From: Streptomyces sp. Tu 3180 | GTDB taxonomy: Bacteria; Actinomycetota; Actinomycetes; Streptomycetales; Streptomycetaceae | Length of the DNA: 64,000 bases | Assembly (NCBI RefSeq): GCF_009852415.1 | Contig: NZ_WOXS01000002.1 | Coordinates: 8,100,001-8,164,000 of the forward strand | Direction of reading: 5' to 3' | In this document: piece after piece, positions 43,855 to 54,998 of the stretch | How positions within the stretch are numbered: the first letter of the stretch is position 1 | Layout: each line of letters begins with the position of its first letter | Notes under the pieces: generated by a model | Told to the model about the DNA's origin: nothing | The model's database searches: none | The model's input: the letters and a program-made list of their open reading frames with translations, nothing else | Position numbers and translations under genes: made by a program

Positions 43855-43960
43855 TAGGCGGTTTCGTTTGGATCAGCGGGAGGACCAGGGGAAGATGCCC
43901 GCGATGTGGAGTCCGGCGAGGTAGATGGTCGCGGTCTTCTCGTAGCGGGTGGCGACGCCG
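43855..43960 (-). mobile_element. IS5-type transposase 3' end, left copy
   Basis: The minus strand encodes ATRYEKTATIYLAGLHIAGI, then FPWSSR and a TGA stop, followed by the presumed terminal repeat ending CGCCTA. It matches 51669-51774 in inverted orientation at 104 of 106 positions. Only the C-terminal end remains. Confidence 0.85.
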
Positions 43961-44652
43961 TGGGCGGGGCGCAGAGGTTCCTGTCCGCGTTCAGTGGCAT
44001 CTCACCCCGCTTCCGGCCTCGTCGCCACCTGATGCCCGCACCTCACCACCGAGCCGAAATGACCGTCCGCTTCACCATCTGGGAGCAGATCACCGGCGTC
44101 ACGGACCGACCTGCCACGGCCTGAGCACCGGCCCCACCACACCTCGGCACACCGTCAGACGCCCACACACCCAACAACGTGACAACGCCCTCACCGGTGC
44201 CGTCGCCCCGAGCGGCCCGACCCGCACCGACGACGGCGGATGACGGGTCTTCTCCTTCGCCGAGACCGGTTCGACGGCCGCGCCCGACGCCATCAAGGAT
44301 GCGGTGGACGGCCTCGCCGCGACCGTGAACGGCTGCTGGGTCTGGGCGTACCTGTGCCGCCCGGCCGCGGGGCCGGGCGGGAGGGCGCCGCTTCGCCTCC
44401 GCCCCCCTTGCCCCTTGCCCGACCGGGCTCATCCACTGTGTGCGCGAGCCGTCGCACGGACGGCGAGGACGCACTCACGGGCGTCCGGCGCCCGCGCCCG
44501 TCCGGAGCGGAACCACACACCCGGTGCACTGATCACGAGCGTTGTCGACGCCGACTGGGCTGCCGAGAGGGACATCTCGCGCGTCACGTCCACCGTTTGT
44601 CATCAGGTCTGTCCTCACTGCACGCTGCTGACGCACAACCACGGCCGTGCGC
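43961..44652. other. gene-free stretch between IS end and RiPP operon
   Basis: No recognisable gene. A perfect 10-base hairpin (CCGCCCGGCC, loop GCGG, complement; 44357-44380) may terminate transcription arriving from the RiPP operon. Short frames here are unconvincing. Confidence 0.45.
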
Positions 44653-45312
44653 TCAGATCACCAGCGGTGCCTCCGACCAGCGGCGGACCCGGTACGGTGC
44701 CCACCACAGATGGTCGCCGAAGCGCAGGACGAGGTGCTCGGAGACGAGGTCGTCCAGGACGGGCCCCGGGATCGCGTCGGCGGGCGCGCCGTCGGCGAGG
44801 GCCGCCACGGCCTCGTGGTACTCCGGTTCGTCGATGGTGAAGCGGCGCAGCTCGCCGTAGCGCCGGTCGCGGACCTGGATGAAGCCGGGGCCGTACCGGA
44901 AGATGCATTTGCAGATGTAGTACGTGGTGCGCCAGGCGAGCGCCGTCGCGACCGGGTCCGCGGCGCCGAGGACGGCGGTCGGCGGGTGGAGGTGGCAGAA
45001 GTGGCGCCAGGCGTCGGGGTCCGGGCCGGTGCGGAGCTGCCAGTCGACCGAGACGGCCAGGCTGGTCAGGTCGCCCACGAAGCTCAGCGCTCTGACCGTC
45101 CAGGCCGCGTCGGCGGCATCCGTCAGGTCCACGGGGCGGGGCAGGGTGACGTGCCGGGCCCCGGCGGCGAACAGCCGCCGGGCGGCCTCGCCGCCGGACA
45201 TGTCGATCTCGTAGCGGCCCAGGGACATGGCGGGCAGGGGGCCCACCTCGGGGTCGTAGTCCCGTGAGGCGGTCACGGTGAAGGGGGCGGTGGCGGTGAG
45301 AGCAGGAGTCAT
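44653..45312 (-). CDS. DUF5825-like protein, RiPP cluster accessory
   Basis: 219 residues from ATG 45312. It reads FTVTASRDYDPEVGPLPAMS, then HVTLPRPVDLTDAADAAWTV, LSFVGDLTSLAVSVDWQL, YGPGFIQVRDRRYGELRRFT and LVLRFGDHLWWAPYRVRRW. This resembles the DUF5825 proteins found beside radical SAM C-methyltransferases in streptomycete RiPP clusters. No catalytic motif is evident; a substrate-recognition or partner role is the best guess. It is the last gene of the operon, 32 bases after the radical SAM gene. Confidence 0.65.
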   Translation of the reverse strand: MTPALTATAPFTVTASRDYDPEVGPLPAMSLGRYEIDMSGGEAARRLFAAGARHVTLPRPVDLTDAADAAWTVRALSFVGDLTSLAVSVDWQLRTGPDPDAWRHFCHLHPPTAVLGAADPVATALAWRTTYYICKCIFRYGPGFIQVRDRRYGELRRFTIDEPEYHEAVAALADGAPADAIPGPVLDDLVSEHLVLRFGDHLWWAPYRVRRWSEAPLVI

Positions 45313-45344
45313 CGTCGTCCCTCGGTCGGGCGGTGGCGCGGTCG

Positions 45345-47246
45345 TCAGGCGGTCGTCGGGGCGAGTTCGGCCTCGCGGGCGGCGGTGTGCCGCATGTGGT
45401 CGATCCGCAGAAACTCCTCGTTCAGGGCGGGCGGCGCGATCTGCACGAACTGCCCGCTGTCCTCGAACACGACGCCCAGCTCCCGCCACCGCTTCAGGAC
45501 CCGGAGCAGGTCGGCCTCGCCGACGGGGTGGTCCGCGTCCAGCTTGCGCGCGGCCGCTTTCACCGTGTGCGGCTGGTCGAGCAGCCGGAACAAGGCCAGT
45601 TCGCGCGGGTCGGTCAGTTCCAGGCGGGTCCAGTCGAAGGCCCGGCGCCTGCTGACCAGGACGATCCGGTCCTCCAGGTCGCAGTGGGTGAGGCGGCTGC
45701 CGGCGTAGTTCCGCTTCCAGCGCGCGATGCCCGCGTCGAGCCGTTCGACGACGTCCTCGCCGATCCCCCGGGGCGGTACGTCGAAGACGTACGCCAGGTC
45801 GAACATCTCCTCGTCGGGGAGGTCGTAGGTGAGCCGGTACGGTTCGGCGGGGCGCAGTTCGGAGAAGCCGAGCCCGGGGTTGTCGAAGTACGGGCTGAAC
45901 CGCTCGATCGCGATCCGGGAGGACGGGCCGACGGGCGGGTTCAGGTGTTCCAGCGCGGCCAGTTGGTCCACCACGTCGTCGTAGTCCTCGGCGTCCTCGC
46001 CCGGGAAGCCGTGCAGGTAGTTCCAGGCGACCGAGAGGCCCACGGTGGCGGCGTCACGGAGCATCCGCACGTTCTGGCCGCCGGTCACGCCCTTGTCCAT
46101 CAGGGTCAGCACCCGGCTGTTGAGGCTCTCGATGCCGGGCTGGACGAAGATCAGGCCCGCGTCCGCCAGGGTCTGGAGCTGTCCGCGCCGCATGTTGGAC
46201 TTGATCTCGATGTGCATGCGCAGGTCGTAGCCGCTGTCGATGATGCGGGGCAGCACCGACTTCACGTACCCCATGTCCAGGATGTTGTCCACGACGTACA
46301 TGTCCAGGACCCGGTGCCTGCGCGCCAGGTCCATGATCTCGTCGTAGAACACGTCGGGGCTCTTGCTGCGGAACTCCATGAACGAGCCGTTCAGCCCGCA
46401 GAAGGTGCAGTGGTGCTTCTCGCCCCACCAGCAGCCGCGTGCCCCCTCGACGACCAGCTTGGGCTCGACCCAGTTCCGGGCGTGGGACGAGGCGAGCCGC
46501 TCGAAGTACCCCGAGTAGTCCGGCGGCAGGATCGCGGCGGGCGGCAGCGGCTTGGTGCTCATGGCGTTCACCACGGAGGTGCCGTCCGTGTCGCGCCAGC
46601 ACAGCCCGGGGACCTCGGACAGGGGCTCGCCCGCGTCCAGGGCCCTGATCAGCGCGGGGAACGACACCTCGCCCTCGCCGCGCAGCACGTGGTCCACGAA
46701 GGGGAAGTTGCGGTGGACGGCCTCGCCCTGCTTGCCGTCGCAGTTGGCGCCGCCCATGGCCGTCACGATGTGCGGGGCGAGCCGCTTGACGTATTTGGCG
46801 GCGGCCAGGGCGGCGGTGTTCTGCTGGAACGTCGAGGTGAACCCGACCACGTCCGGGGCGAGTTCCACGATGCGTTCCGCTATGTGCCGGACGAAGTCGG
46901 GTGCGGTGACGTGCAGGGCCCGCGTCATCTCCATCCGGGCCCCGGGCACCCGGTTGGCCATCGCCGTGGTGAACTCGGCGACGCGCCATTCGGGATCGTC
47001 GTAGAGAGCGGAGGAGAAGACCCAGTCGCCGCAGCCCAGGAAATACGATCCGAGTGCGTAGTAGGAGTAGTCCTCCAAAGTGAATTCCGTGTTCTTGGTG
47101 ATCCAGTCCACGTATTCGATGTTCGCGTGCAGAACGTCCGCTGTGCTGTTCGGTACGCGCTCGTCGACGCTGCGCTTGAGAATTCCGAGAGCCAGCGACG
47201 GGAGATCGATCGGGGCCCAGGGCATGTTCACCAGGAGTACGCGCAC
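45345..47246 (-). CDS. RiPP maturation radical SAM C-methyltransferase, cobalamin-binding type
   Basis: 633 residues from GTG 47246 with AGAGG upstream. Residues 1-200 form a B12-binding-like Rossmann domain (MRVLLVNMPWAPIDLPSLAL; DVVGFTSTFQQNTAALAAAK; VTAMGGANCDG). The radical SAM 4Fe-4S cluster is bound by Cys272, Cys280 and Cys283 (CWWGEKHHCTFCG), an unusual CX7CX2C spacing seen in the RiPP maturation radical SAM protein 1 group. MYVVDNILDMGY, FVQPGIESL and WNYLHGFPGE are typical barrel motifs. The C-terminal 150 residues form a winged-helix-like region (TVKAAARKLDADHPVGEADL) that may hold the leader peptide. Expected reaction: methylation of unactivated carbon in the precursor at 47430. 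Confidence 0.88.
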   Translation of the reverse strand: MRVLLVNMPWAPIDLPSLALGILKRSVDERVPNSTADVLHANIEYVDWITKNTEFTLEDYSYYALGSYFLGCGDWVFSSALYDDPEWRVAEFTTAMANRVPGARMEMTRALHVTAPDFVRHIAERIVELAPDVVGFTSTFQQNTAALAAAKYVKRLAPHIVTAMGGANCDGKQGEAVHRNFPFVDHVLRGEGEVSFPALIRALDAGEPLSEVPGLCWRDTDGTSVVNAMSTKPLPPAAILPPDYSGYFERLASSHARNWVEPKLVVEGARGCWWGEKHHCTFCGLNGSFMEFRSKSPDVFYDEIMDLARRHRVLDMYVVDNILDMGYVKSVLPRIIDSGYDLRMHIEIKSNMRRGQLQTLADAGLIFVQPGIESLNSRVLTLMDKGVTGGQNVRMLRDAATVGLSVAWNYLHGFPGEDAEDYDDVVDQLAALEHLNPPVGPSSRIAIERFSPYFDNPGLGFSELRPAEPYRLTYDLPDEEMFDLAYVFDVPPRGIGEDVVERLDAGIARWKRNYAGSRLTHCDLEDRIVLVSRRRAFDWTRLELTDPRELALFRLLDQPHTVKAAARKLDADHPVGEADLLRVLKRWRELGVVFEDSGQFVQIAPPALNEEFLRIDHMRHTAAREAELAPTTA

Positions 47247-47309
47247 GGCTCGCCTCTTCTCATGTGATCAGTGCACGGCATGACGGGTCGGCCGGGCGTC
47301 GGCCGGGAA

Positions 47310-47382
47310 GTCGTCAGGCGCCGGGCGGGGCGCCTGACGACCTCCGTGACGGGGCACCGGCCGGGGAGCCCGGCCGGTGCCC
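47310..47382 (-). terminator. double hairpin (attenuator) between precursor and radical SAM gene
   Basis: Reading with the operon, a 14-base stem with a 3-base loop comes first (47382-47352, GGGCACCGGCCGGG arms). A 13-base stem with a 6-base loop follows (47341-47310, GTCGTCAGGCGCC arms). They lie in the 183-base gap after the precursor stop. Partial termination here would make precursor mRNA more abundant than enzyme mRNA, as in many RiPP operons. Confidence 0.75.
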
Positions 47383-47429
47383 TCCGGACGGGGCCGGCCG
47401 CGCACGGTGGCGGGACCGGCCCCTCGGCG

Positions 47430-47549
47430 CTACTGGTCCTCGTCCTCCATCTCCTCCGCGGAGCGGAAGTAGACGACGACGCCGACGCCCGGCTTGCGGC
47501 TCTCCTCGTCGCCGTCGAGCGGGTCGCCGTGGATGATGTCCTTCTGCAT
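47430..47549 (-). CDS. RiPP precursor peptide
   Basis: 39 residues from ATG 47549, with an excellent ribosome binding site (GAGGAGGTGA). The N-terminal half (MQKDIIHGDPLDGDEESRK) is polar and acidic, like a leader. The middle is a compact hydrophobic block PGVGVVVYFRS, and the tail AEEMEDEDQ is acidic. There are no Cys and only two Ser (S17 and S29), so it is not a classic lanthipeptide or thiopeptide. The Val/Tyr/Phe block is a plausible site for C-methylation by the downstream radical SAM enzyme. It sits five bases after the S9 peptidase stop and before the double hairpin. The core boundaries are inferred. Confidence 0.8.
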   Translation of the reverse strand: MQKDIIHGDPLDGDEESRKPGVGVVVYFRSAEEMEDEDQ

Positions 47550-47554
47550 GGTGT

Positions 47555-49384
47555 TCACCTCCTCTCCGCGGGTGGTGGCCGCTCGGCCTGATCGGGCCCG
47601 GAAGGCAGCCCGCCGCCGAGAAACGCGAGGGACCGTCGTATGACGGCCAGGTGGTCGGCTCCGTCGTAGCCGTCGTGGCCCGAGTCCAGCCACATCACCT
47701 CGTGCGGGACACCGCCCGCACGCAGCACGGCCAGGTACGCCTCGATCTGCTCCGGCGGGCACTTGGCGTCCCGGCGCGCGGCGACGACCAGCAGCGGGGA
47801 GCGGATGGCGGCGGCGTACGAGGACGGGGAGGCGTGGGCGTAGGCGCCCGGCACCTCGTCGGGAGTGCCGCCGAACAGCGAGGTGTCCAGCGCCTGGAGG
47901 GCGGGCGTGGAGTGCCGGAAGGCGGTGGCGCAGTCGGCGAGCGGTTTGACGGCCACCCCGACATCCCACAGGCCGGGGCGGGTCCCCATCGCCAGCAGGG
48001 TCAGATAGCCGCCCCACGACGTGCCGCACAGGCCCACGGCGCCCGGGCGGCCGATGCCCCGTTCCAGCAGGTCGGCCCGGACCCGCACCAGGTCGGCGAC
48101 CTGGGTGTGGCCGACGCCCTCGGAGTACGCGGAGCGCCAGCGCGGCCCGTAGCCGGTCGAGCCCCGGTAGTTGACGCGGGCCACGGCGAGGCCCGAGCCG
48201 ACCAGGGTCTGCACCATGGGGTCGTAGGCGTCGCGGTCGTGGTCGGCCGGGCCGCCGTGGACGAGGAGGACCAGCGGGTAGGGTCCGGGGCGGTCCGCGG
48301 GTGTGGTGACGAAGGTGTGCACGGGGCCGTCGGGTCCCGGCGTCCACAGGTCCCGGCGGTGGCCGAAGCGGGGGACGCGCCACTGGCTCTGCCCGGGCAG
48401 CGGCGCACCCGACAGGGACATCGCGCGGGGCACGGTCACCGCGTCGGTCCAGATGTAGTGCACGTCGCCGCCGGCGGTGGGTGACGCGGCCAGGATGCTT
48501 CCCTCGGGGGTGGGCACGGGGGTCAGCTCGCCGCGCTCCAGGTCCGCGGTGAACAACCTGCTGCGGCCGTGCCGGTCCTGTCGCAGCAGGACCCGCGCGC
48601 TGCCCGGGCCGGGGTACCAGCGGGCGGTCGTCTCGGTGTCGAAGGAGCACCAGGGCAGCAGTTCCAGTCCGGCGCCGGGGCTCCAGACACCGAGGTGGTA
48701 GCGGCCGGCCCGCTCGCGCATGACCAGCAGCAGCGTATGGCCGGACGTGCCCCGGGGGCCCGGGGGCGGGGTGGGCGCGGGCGCGAAGCCGAGCGCCCAG
48801 GTGCGTTCCCGGGCGCCGGAGAGCACCGCGGCGGTGCTCCCGTCCGGGGTCAGCAGCGTCACGGCGCGGGCCGAGTGCGCGGGGCCGGTCACCGCCAGCA
48901 GGCCGCCGTCCGGCGCCAGATCGCACAGGGTGGCGGAGTCCGTCGTGCGCAGGACGGGTGTGCCCCGGCCGCCGCGCCGCCCCAGGTGCACGCTGAATCC
49001 CTCGCTCCCGCGGATGCCGACGGCCACCGTGCCCCGTTCCGTCAGCGCCAGCCCGGCGGGCCGCCCGCAGGGCACGTCGAGCAGCGCCGGGCGGTCCGGG
49101 CCGCCGTCGAAGTCCTGGGTGCGCCAGCCGCCGCTGCCGCCGCGGTCCTCGTCGAACCACCACACGGCCTCGTCGCCGTCGATGGCGCACAGCAGCGTGC
49201 CGTGGGGACGGTCGGTCAACTGCCGTCCGCCGCCGCTGGACCGGTCCCAGGTGAAGATCTCGCACCGGCCGTCGGCGTCCCCCGTGTACACCATCCGGTC
49301 CGGGTTGCGGGGACTGGTCACCGGCAGCACCGGGCGGTAGACGCCGTAGCCGCGCGTGACCGTCCGCGGGGAGAACGCCGTCAC
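47555..49384 (-). CDS. S9-family (prolyl oligopeptidase-like) serine peptidase
   Basis: 609 residues. The N-terminal 350 residues form a beta-propeller (repeats such as VYTGDADGRCEIFTWDRSSG and LCDLAPDGGLLAVTGPA). The C-terminal hydrolase has oxyanion VLLVHGGPADHDRDAY, nucleophile GTSWGGY (Ser near residue 455), Asp in VAARRDAKCPPEQ and His in DSGHDGYDG. The triad is complete. GTG 49384 overlaps the MFS stop as GTGA. In this operon it probably removes the leader of the modified peptide or trims it. The propeller gate restricts substrates to short peptides, which suits a 39-residue precursor. Confidence 0.88.
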   Translation of the reverse strand: MTAFSPRTVTRGYGVYRPVLPVTSPRNPDRMVYTGDADGRCEIFTWDRSSGGGRQLTDRPHGTLLCAIDGDEAVWWFDEDRGGSGGWRTQDFDGGPDRPALLDVPCGRPAGLALTERGTVAVGIRGSEGFSVHLGRRGGRGTPVLRTTDSATLCDLAPDGGLLAVTGPAHSARAVTLLTPDGSTAAVLSGARERTWALGFAPAPTPPPGPRGTSGHTLLLVMRERAGRYHLGVWSPGAGLELLPWCSFDTETTARWYPGPGSARVLLRQDRHGRSRLFTADLERGELTPVPTPEGSILAASPTAGGDVHYIWTDAVTVPRAMSLSGAPLPGQSQWRVPRFGHRRDLWTPGPDGPVHTFVTTPADRPGPYPLVLLVHGGPADHDRDAYDPMVQTLVGSGLAVARVNYRGSTGYGPRWRSAYSEGVGHTQVADLVRVRADLLERGIGRPGAVGLCGTSWGGYLTLLAMGTRPGLWDVGVAVKPLADCATAFRHSTPALQALDTSLFGGTPDEVPGAYAHASPSSYAAAIRSPLLVVAARRDAKCPPEQIEAYLAVLRAGGVPHEVMWLDSGHDGYDGADHLAVIRRSLAFLGGGLPSGPDQAERPPPAERR

Positions 49385-50655
49385 GGCACCTCCCGGACGA
49401 CGAGAGCGGACCTGGCCGTCGCGTACAGGGCCAGCGCGGCGAAGGCCGCGGCGCAGCCCCACGCGACCGTGCGGCCGCCGTACGCGGCCACCAGGACCCC
49501 GGCCAGCACCGGGGCGAGCGCGGCGACGCCCTGGCCGGCGGTGCCCAGCACCGTGCCCATCCGGGCCAGCAGACCGTCGGGGGTCACCAGCACCGCCCGG
49601 GTCTGGAGCACGACCGCCACCGACGGCACGATCAGCGACACCCCGCTCAGCAGCAGCCCGTAGGCCCAGGTCTGGGAGGCGTACGCGAGCCCGGCTGCCG
49701 TCGGCACCATGACCCACGAGGCGCCCGTGACGATCCGGGGAGCCGCCACCCGCCGCACCAGCCAGGGCGCGGCGAGCGCGCCCAGCAGCCCGCCGACGCC
49801 CGCGAGGGTGAGGATGAGACCGATCGAGGAGGGACTGGCGCCCTCGGCGTGCGAGGCGAAGACGGCGTGGAAGTACAGCGCTCCCAGCAGGGCGTTGACC
49901 CCGGCCGTCCACACGACCACGAAGCGCAGGAAGGGGTGCGCCCACACGAAGCGCAGGCCGTCGGCCAGCTCACGGGCGAAGGACGGGGCGGTTGTCTCCC
50001 GTACGGGCGTCAGGTCCGCGCGGATCGCCCTGCTCAACACGGCCACCAGCAGGAACGACACGGCGTCCGCGAGCAGCGGCACCCACCGCGCCGCCTGGTA
50101 GAGGACCCCGCCCAGCGTCGGGCCGACGATCTGGACCGCCTGGTCCCGTGCCTGGAGGTACCCGATCGCCCGGGGGTACTCCTCGGGGGGCACGAGCCGC
50201 CGGATCGTACCGGAGGCGGCCGCCCCGTAGGTGGCGCTGGCCGCCTGCTCGACGACGGCCGCGACGAGTACGTGGAGGAGGACGACATGGCCGAGTGCCA
50301 CGGTCACGAACACCGAGCCCATGGCGCCCGCGGCGACCAGGGCCGCCGTGTACATCATCGGCTTGCGCGGCAGCCGGTCGGCGAACACGCCCGCGACCGG
50401 CGAGACGACGAGCCCGCTGACCAGTGCCACCGAGGCGACGAGGCCGGCGAGCCCGGACGAGTACCCGGCGCCCAGGAGGATCAGCGGAAGGAAGAGGGCG
50501 GACGCACAGGTCCCGAGACCGTCGACGGCGCCCGCCACCCAGAAGAGGGAGTAATCCCGTCTTCGGAAAGGAGAAGAAGGCGAGCCTTTTGATAATCGCT
50601 CGCCTTCCGCTAATTCAGGGCCGGAAGGCATTGAATTCCGTTCGGCATCGCCCAT
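49381..50655 (-). CDS. MFS exporter (DHA3/EntS-like, 12 TM), first gene of RiPP operon
   Basis: 424 residues. Helix 1 is DYSLFWVAGAVDGLGTCASA, and the MFS motif A is VFADRLPRKPMM. IRRLVPPEEYPRAIGYLQAR and SVAVVLQTRAVLVTPDGLLA are typical of the MFS_3 family. It probably exports the mature peptide. Codons 15 and 21 are TTA (50613-50611 and 50595-50593). No start codon lies between them and helix 1, so translation must pass both. The first 25 codons are visibly AT-richer than the rest. The promoter is about 90 bases upstream. Confidence 0.85.
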   Translation of the reverse strand: MGDAERNSMPSGPELAEGERLSKGSPSSPFRRRDYSLFWVAGAVDGLGTCASALFLPLILLGAGYSSGLAGLVASVALVSGLVVSPVAGVFADRLPRKPMMYTAALVAAGAMGSVFVTVALGHVVLLHVLVAAVVEQAASATYGAAASGTIRRLVPPEEYPRAIGYLQARDQAVQIVGPTLGGVLYQAARWVPLLADAVSFLLVAVLSRAIRADLTPVRETTAPSFARELADGLRFVWAHPFLRFVVVWTAGVNALLGALYFHAVFASHAEGASPSSIGLILTLAGVGGLLGALAAPWLVRRVAAPRIVTGASWVMVPTAAGLAYASQTWAYGLLLSGVSLIVPSVAVVLQTRAVLVTPDGLLARMGTVLGTAGQGVAALAPVLAGVLVAAYGGRTVAWGCAAAFAALALYATARSALVVREVP

Positions 50656-50742
50656 CAGCCATCCCGCTCGGGGAGTAATTCTGACGCTGACGCACCCACA
50701 TCGCCCCCTGCAATGAGCGGACTTACGGCCGGTGAGGGTGCG

Positions 50743-50771
50743 ATCGTAGCGAAGGGATTCACGGCGCACAA
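50743..50771 (-). promoter_or_regulatory. promoter of the RiPP operon
   Basis: On the minus strand TTGTGC (50771-50766) and TACGAT (50748-50743) are 17 bases apart, a good vegetative-type promoter in an AT-rich patch. Transcription would start near 50736, giving a leader of about 80 bases before the MFS gene. Confidence 0.6.
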
Positions 50772-51461
50772 TACCGTCCCTGAAATGGCATTTTCGATCA
50801 AGAAATGGCTCGCCCCGGCACGGCGGACGGTCCGCGTTGGTGCCACGCCACCTCGCACGGCCGTCGATTCCGGAACGGCGGGAAACGCGCAACGCGCGCC
50901 GCGGCCCTCGGTGTCGGGCGGAGGACGCGGCCCGTCGCCGCGTCCGCCGTCCGGAGGTGATCCTGCCTGGCCGGACGCTCCTCCGCCGCCGCGGCACCGG
51001 GGGCGCCGCCGGGCGCGGGGGCCGCGGCGGACTCGGATCCGCCCGCCCCGTGGAGTACCGCGGTCCCCTTCCGGTTGCCCGCCGGGTCCTGACCGCGCAC
51101 GGCGGGCCCTCGTCTCCGGCCACGGTGCGGCAGCGCGGAGCGCGGGCGGTCGAAGGGCGGGCTGACCGTCGAACGGCAGCAGTGCCGCGAGGAGTTACGG
51201 GTGAAGGCGGCAGAGAAGGTCGCCCGGGACGCAGGACGAGGCGGGCTCGTTGATCCCCCAGGCCGCTCGGCGTCGTCCGGTTCGCCGATCTCGGTCAGGA
51301 CGAGCTGGGTGAGCGTCGAAGCCGACCGATGCCGCTCCGGTCAGCGGACGCAGGGGAACAGCCCAGCCCTCTGTCACCCGAGCAGGACCGCCCTCCCGCC
51401 CACTGTTCGGACCGGAGGATCGCGGGGCGCCCGGCACTGCCGCCGGACGCCCCGGACCCTC
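50772..51461. other. gene-free stretch upstream of RiPP operon
   Basis: About 690 bases. Frames on both strands are Arg/Pro/Gly-rich and unrecognisable. Regulatory sites for the operon may lie near 50,780-50,830, which is unusually AT-rich, but I see no clear dyad. Confidence 0.4.
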
Positions 51462-51626: not shown

Positions 51627-51774
51627 GCACCCCGTCGAGCGGTGCATCAACCGCTTGAAGCAGTGGCGCGGCATCGCCACCCGCTACGAGAAGACCGCGA
51701 CCGTCTACCTCGCCGGACTCCACATCGCGGGCATCTTCCCCTGGTCCTCCCGCTGATCCAAACGAAACCGCCTA
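51627..51774 (+). mobile_element. IS5-type transposase 3' end, right copy
   Basis: The plus strand encodes VERCINRLKQWRGIATRYEK, then TATVYLAGLHIAGIFPWSSR and a TGA stop, followed by the presumed terminal repeat ending CGCCTA at 51774. It is the inverted partner of 43855-43960. The LuxR-type gene begins only 10 bases beyond the end. Confidence 0.85.
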
Positions 51775-54268: not shown

Positions 54269-54943
54269 TCACCGTCCCGTCGTCCGGCGCAGGGCGATCG
54301 CGGTGAGCAGTATGCCCTGACGGGAGAGCCACCGGCCGTTGAACTCCTCGATGCGTTCTCCGTCGGCGGTGGTGCCCGGGACGAGCAGTCGCGCGGAGAA
54401 GGTGCCGCAGGCGGGGTCGATGCGGATGTCCGCCTCGGCGAAGTCGAGTTCGCGCCTGGTGAGCGGGAACCAGGTCTTGAACACCGCCTCCTTGGCGCTG
54501 AACAACAACCGGTCCCAGCAGACGCCGGGAGAGGACTGCGCCAGCGTGCGCACCCACGCACGCTCCTGGGGCAGCGAGATGAACTCCAGCAGGCCTTCTG
54601 CCAGGGGAAGGTCAGGTTCGGCGTCGATGCCGAGCCCCACGAACGCGCAGGAGCGGCCGATGGCGGCGGCCCGGAACCCGGGACAGTGGGTCAGGCTGCC
54701 GACGGTGCCCTCGGGCCACAGCGGTGCGCCGCGCACACCCGACAGCACAGGCGCTGGCGGCACGCCCAGTTCGCGCATGGCGCGGCGCGCGCACAGGCGG
54801 ACGTTCGCGTATTCACGTCGGCGCTTCGGCTGGGCCCTCGCGACGGCGGCGGCCTCCTGCGGGTACAAGGCGGTCAGCGCCGCGTCGTAGTCGACGAACG
54901 TGCTGCCCGTGCCGACGGCCGAAGGCAACAACTCGTCGATCAT
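54269..54943 (-). CDS. 4'-phosphopantetheinyl transferase (Sfp/EntD type)
   Basis: 224 residues from ATG 54943 (GTG 54946 possible). Conserved blocks are KRRREYANVRLCARRAMREL, GSLTHCPGFRAAAIGR, the Mg-binding GLGIDAEPD and FSAKEAVFKTWFPLT. It loads the phosphopantetheine arm of CoA onto acyl carrier proteins. Its place next to a PKS suggests it activates the ACP at residue 699 of that PKS and its partners. Confidence 0.93.
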   Translation of the reverse strand: MIDELLPSAVGTGSTFVDYDAALTALYPQEAAAVARAQPKRRREYANVRLCARRAMRELGVPPAPVLSGVRGAPLWPEGTVGSLTHCPGFRAAAIGRSCAFVGLGIDAEPDLPLAEGLLEFISLPQERAWVRTLAQSSPGVCWDRLLFSAKEAVFKTWFPLTRRELDFAEADIRIDPACGTFSARLLVPGTTADGERIEEFNGRWLSRQGILLTAIALRRTTGR

Positions 54944-54998
54944 CACACCACCCCGCGTTCACGCCGTCGTTCCCGGGCTTTCCCACCGTGCTCCGTGC

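Follow-up and report, generated by a model that had tools for sequence, protein, structure and literature searches.

The locus at positions 44,653 to 50,655 of the window (the whole stretch of 64,000 nucleotides that was analysed) is a compact operon of five genes, all on the minus strand, which encode an MFS protein, an S9 peptidase, a 39-residue peptide, a B12-type radical SAM enzyme and a DUF5825 protein. From the first gene to the last, its features are as follows.

49381..50655, minus strand: MFS exporter, first gene of the operon (PF07690, 86.9 bits; TIGR00900, 146.4 bits, under its curated cut-off)
47555..49384, minus strand: S9 family (prolyl oligopeptidase-like) peptidase, GTG start, probable leader peptidase (PF00326, 106.7 bits)
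47430..47549, minus strand: precursor of 39 amino acids, MQKDIIHGDPLDGDEESRKP-GVGVVVYFRS-AEEMEDEDQ (leader QKD[IV]IxxDPL and RKP conserved among relatives)
47247..47429, minus strand: GC-rich hairpins in the gap between the precursor and radical SAM genes, probable attenuator or mRNA stabiliser (minimum free energy -124.6 kcal/mol, z -6.34)
45345..47246, minus strand: B12-binding radical SAM protein, predicted C-methyltransferase, GTG start (TIGR03975, 594.9 bits; B12-binding and Radical_SAM domains in Pfam)
44653..45312, minus strand: DUF5825 partner protein (PF19142, 247.6 bits; cut-off 25)

This arrangement was first proposed in a sequence-only reading of the window, and the coordinates and strand given there for the five genes agree with the sequence. 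So do the overlap of the MFS and S9 genes through GTGA (49381-50655 and 47555-49384), the gap of 5 bases that sets the S9 stop upstream of the precursor ATG (47549), and a peptide without Cys and with only two Ser in its 39-residue translation. The ribosome-binding site of the precursor, GGAGG, sits within the last codons of the S9 gene. The hairpins 3' of the precursor are also real: positions 47247-47440 fold far better than dinucleotide shuffles (z = -6.34), and nearly every related locus has a hairpin that starts just past the precursor stop, with varying sequence and gap length. A pattern scan found no T-tailed intrinsic terminator in the operon, and Rfam showed no known RNA, riboswitches included, in the window. 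The hairpin may be an attenuator that yields more precursor than enzyme.

Similarity to divergent relatives is confined to about 44651 to 50817 and thus stops near the first and last genes, for which reason the operon is taken to consist of these five genes only. On the same ground, an extension to the adjacent P450, PPTase and FGE-sulfatase genes was rejected. These lie outside the operon, past a transposase remnant (4'-phosphopantetheinyl transferase, 54269-54946; FGE-sulfatase-type protein, 54999 to about 55700; cytochrome P450, 56221-57450). The remnant is one of two inverted 106-nt copies (98%; 43855-43960 and 51669-51774) that flank the operon and correspond to the 3' end of an IS5-type transposase gene (reading ...CINRLKQWRGIATRYEKTATVYLAGLHIAGIF...; Pfam DDE match weak, E 0.09). 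Immediately beyond the operon, a very near relative (L136/L064) has rearranged flanks. Such a setting, between inverted transposase remnants and with rearranged flanks in so near a relative, would suit a recently acquired genomic island, possibly silent or decaying, whose product no longer matters; however, all five frames are intact, the precursor and the catalytic residues are conserved, and, per site, the enzymes show mainly synonymous substitutions, all of which speak against decay and make an island of this kind most improbable.

Relatives of the precursor were found at an E value of <= 0.001 in 50 of 393 Streptomyces genomes (genus-wide search). For the comparison of loci, 73 were fetched (up to 17 kb each) in addition to named ones; a search of genome contigs with the DUF5825 query reached close relatives alone. 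The peptide is encoded between the S9 and radical SAM genes in 58 of 58 loci with a close radical SAM (a count that includes the window and Streptomyces clavuligerus), and the DUF5825 gene follows the radical SAM gene in these loci except where the contig ends. Because of its relatives in 50 genomes and this constant place, the peptide is not a chance open reading frame. The proposal of a RiPP operon, which leaned on a small peptide being conserved beside radical SAM/DUF5825 pairs, is thereby borne out: such a peptide is present in all 58 close loci, and gene content and domains agree. The MFS gene, present at nearly all related loci, also supports the exporter assigned to the pathway in that proposal, its role in export being predicted.

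Alignment of 44 distinct precursors showed leader residues K3, D4, P10, L11 and R18 to be invariant and P20 to be present in 42. More distant DUF5825 loci encode short peptides that share the K..[VI][VI].NDP leader and have V/I/T-rich ends without a tail (e.g., MNSVRKAVVHNDPLDLKNQTRANRPIVVIIVSS and MEKTVVDNDPQTEGTESATITIPIITGRF), and a genome from another family of the class has MRKRVIKNDPISGNRDQSRSVEVSVSVSVGF beside an S9 gene; the cores of these distant relatives are composed of V/I/T or V/S. Tail-less relatives with the NDP leader motif lie next to other DUF5825/radical SAM or S9/radical SAM genes (L104, L109, L154) and form a broader and apparently untapped precursor family.

The close precursors have two core types. 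In the common type (36 of the 44 distinct precursors), the core [GST][VI]x[VI]T[VI]T[VI]P, where x is mostly G, is followed by [FL​I]R and an acidic tail; positions 2, 4, 6 and 8 are V or I without exception, position 9 is Pro in 36 of 36, and the odd positions show a few substitutions. The window belongs to a second type (Y-type; 7 distinct precursors) with the core GVGVV[VI]Y[FL]RS, in which Tyr is invariant. Compared with the common [GST][VI]G[VI]T[VI]T[VI]P-FRN, this core is shorter by two residues and lacks the second Pro, which is missing from its C-terminal end in all seven. The second Pro may be a defining feature or a cut site; its absence would mark a variant and still allow membership. 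V or I at positions 2, 4 and 6 is common to both types, and V/I alternating with small or polar residues suggests an amphipathic beta-strand pattern that would suit a surfactant.

In the radical SAM tree, the 14 Y-type loci fall on one branch (99% SH-aLRT), and its sister is a locus (L129) with the core GVGIVIRFRN and no Pro before or after it. Given this single branch and its sister, the core length probably changed once, along with its enzyme. The family accordingly comprises two or more core architectures that map to different branches of the radical SAM tree, which makes site selection by the radical SAM/DUF5825 pair and C-terminal processing directly testable. Compared with several Y-type relatives, the precursor gene showed 0-3 synonymous changes and the enzyme genes about 0.25 per site (small numbers); the low synonymous divergence of the precursor gene hints at a codon- or RNA-level constraint.

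The radical SAM enzyme is full-length and scores 594.9 bits for TIGR03975 (cut-off 281.85). Its cluster motif CX7CX2C comprises C272, C280 and C283, and these Cys are invariant in 80 homologues. The nearest solved relative is the methyltransferase TokK (PDB 7kdx, E 6e-12). Assignment of its partner to DUF5825, given before as DUF5825-like, is now firm at 247.6 bits for PF19142, and the two genes are adjacent in all complete close relatives. The AlphaFold2 model of the DUF5825 protein is confident (pLDDT 91.7) and had no PDB structure match at an E value of <= 0.001 (best E, 0.26). An RRE (PqqD-like winged helix) was considered for this protein and ruled out, with no PqqD or RRE among the listed structural matches and none at E <= 0.001. 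Most DUF5825 proteins of the common type share only about 44-54% identity with those of the Y-type clade. That DUF5825 binds the leader is our guess. In the literature searched, DUF5825 was mentioned only in work on biphenomycin-like clusters. From domain content and analogy, the presence of a B12-dependent radical SAM C-methyltransferase with a DUF5825 partner in a RiPP operon is well supported.

The product had been envisaged as a peptide C-methylated on Val, Tyr and Phe. C-methylation itself is upheld by the B12-binding and radical SAM domains and by the precedent of the clavusporins, which a B12 radical SAM/DUF5825 pair C-methylates according to a 2025 publication, as cited elsewhere (Zhang et al., Nat Chem Biol; cited in PMC12257519). 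Tyr and Phe as specific targets are not supported by the comparison, in which V/I at alternate positions is the residue class that both core types conserve. The invariant Tyr gained by the Y-type core might instead point to an enzyme that cross-links the core, e.g., Tyr to a neighbour, in the manner of PbsB, a B12 radical SAM enzyme of biphenomycin-like pathways that acts on ortho-tyrosines and is described as cross-linking without methylating (PMC12257519). This is very unlikely for the window enzyme, which lies well within TIGR03975, a family named for C-methyltransferases, and groups with DUF5825-paired enzymes; moreover, the same text ties the DUF5825-paired B12 radical SAM enzyme to methylation and treats the cross-linker PbsB as separate, and most relatives have no aromatic residue from the leader Pro to the second Pro.

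Release of the core by the prolyl oligopeptidase-like enzyme, also suggested at the outset, is well supported by the S9 triad Ser456/Asp539/His570 (residue 1 being the one that follows the start codon; each conserved in 97% or more of 62 homologues) and by the precedent of MpcP, a prolyl oligopeptidase which, in PMC12951456, is reported to remove the clavusporin leader. The cut is most likely after Pro20, the end of the leader; common-type precursors could be cut again after the Pro at core position 9, which would release a 9-mer. The Y-type has no second Pro, so its C-terminal end would be made otherwise than that of the common type. A cut after Pro does not hold throughout, even in the sister lineage, where L129 carries RAV and not RKP before the core. 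This Val before the core, together with the acylamino-acid-releasing enzymes that are the nearest solved S9 relatives, would fit an S9 enzyme that does not free the core after Pro20 and serves instead to trim the peptide once exported or to break it down (immunity or turnover). We regard such a role as unlikely in view of the reported action of MpcP and of a pattern that fits a Pro-directed protease: Pro20 occurs in 42 of the 44 distinct precursors, and all 36 of the common type have Pro at core position 9.

With the S9 enzyme as leader peptidase and the radical SAM enzyme as C-methyltransferase, we infer the following steps for the window operon, among them the sites of methylation, the positions of the cuts, export and the role as a surfactant. 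The leader (QKDIIHxDPL...EExRKP) would dock the precursor on the radical SAM/DUF5825 pair, and the B12 radical SAM enzyme would place methyl groups on unactivated side-chain carbons, most likely those of the alternating Val of GVGVVVY. The S9 peptidase would then cut after Pro20 to free the core, which the MFS protein would export. The product would probably be a short, amphipathic, beta-strand-like surfactant that aids aerial growth, as described for the clavusporins. It is possible, although we put it at somewhat under an even chance, that the Y-type makes a distinct product class, with one prolyl oligopeptidase cut and a mature end that retains Tyr-Phe/Leu-Arg or a longer part of the acidic tail; the result would be a surfactant that is charged, aromatic or methylated in another pattern, or a compound with some other activity, and DUF5825 would be a new precursor-binding partner with its own fold. 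The calculated [M+H]+ of predicted unmodified Y-type products is 692.398 for GVGVVVY, 995.567 for GVGVVVYFR and 2158.960 for GVGVVVYFRSAEEMEDEDQ, to which every methylation would add 14.0157.

Among known systems, TokK, a B12 radical SAM methyltransferase of carbapenem biosynthesis, has the B12-binding/radical SAM architecture of the window enzyme, but its substrate is a small carbapenem intermediate and not a peptide. The radical SAM C-methyltransferases of polytheonamide and bottromycin do methylate unactivated carbons, including those of Val, in a ribosomal peptide; their leaders differ from the window type, and we know of no DUF5825 partner for them. Clavusporins are reportedly hydrophobic peptides of ribosomal origin that carry several C-methylations, reduce the surface tension of water and aid Streptomyces development, and their operon is said to be widespread in actinomycetes. 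The B12 radical SAM/DUF5825 pair and the prolyl oligopeptidase leader protease of the clavusporin (mpc) operon are likewise found in the window. Biphenomycin-like MNIO clusters with YHxYxY also have a B12 radical SAM/DUF5825 pair beside a RiPP precursor, but, as described in PMC12257519, they contain in addition an MNIO, a protein with an RRE and a B12 radical SAM enzyme that cross-links, none of which is in the window operon.

The S. clavuligerus megaplasmid carries MFS, S9, precursor (MQKDVIHNDPLAGDEENRKPSVGITITVPFRNAEDADED), TIGR03975-type radical SAM and DUF5825 genes in the same order as the window (identities of 71% for radical SAM, 55% for S9 and 47% for DUF5825). By its name and gene content, this would be the clavusporin operon and S. 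clavuligerus the producer. Its precursor gene (L146:7001-7117; NZ_CP065240.1 211001-211117) is unlisted in the PLSDB gene table and overlaps the annotated end of an alpha/beta hydrolase gene; the leader motif thus finds a precursor missed by annotation in this plasmid record. The leader is the same as in the window, whereas the core SVGITITVP-FRN differs from GVGVVVYFRS, which is two residues shorter, lacks the second Pro, has Val for the first Thr and gains Tyr. Gene content, conservation and motifs are shown by sequence, as is the gene order that the window has in common with S. clavuligerus. The window combines TIGR03975 and PF19142 matches over their cut-offs, an S9 protease with a conserved triad, a leader of the QKD[IV]IxNDPL...RKP class and an alternating V/I core as in S. 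clavuligerus (leader aligned across 44 distinct precursors). An apparently orphan RiPP operon is thereby tied to the clavusporins: it very probably makes a clavusporin-type RiPP, a likeness drawn from citing papers and the S. clavuligerus operon. The pathway, first thought probably undescribed, has the radical SAM/DUF5825/prolyl oligopeptidase system that citing text attributes to the clavusporins published in 2025, and its precursor class, not recognised in the sequence-only reading, has a relative in the same operon on the S. clavuligerus megaplasmid. The pathway class is therefore already known; what sets the window operon apart is the well-supported short-core Y-type subclade of 14 loci to which it belongs.
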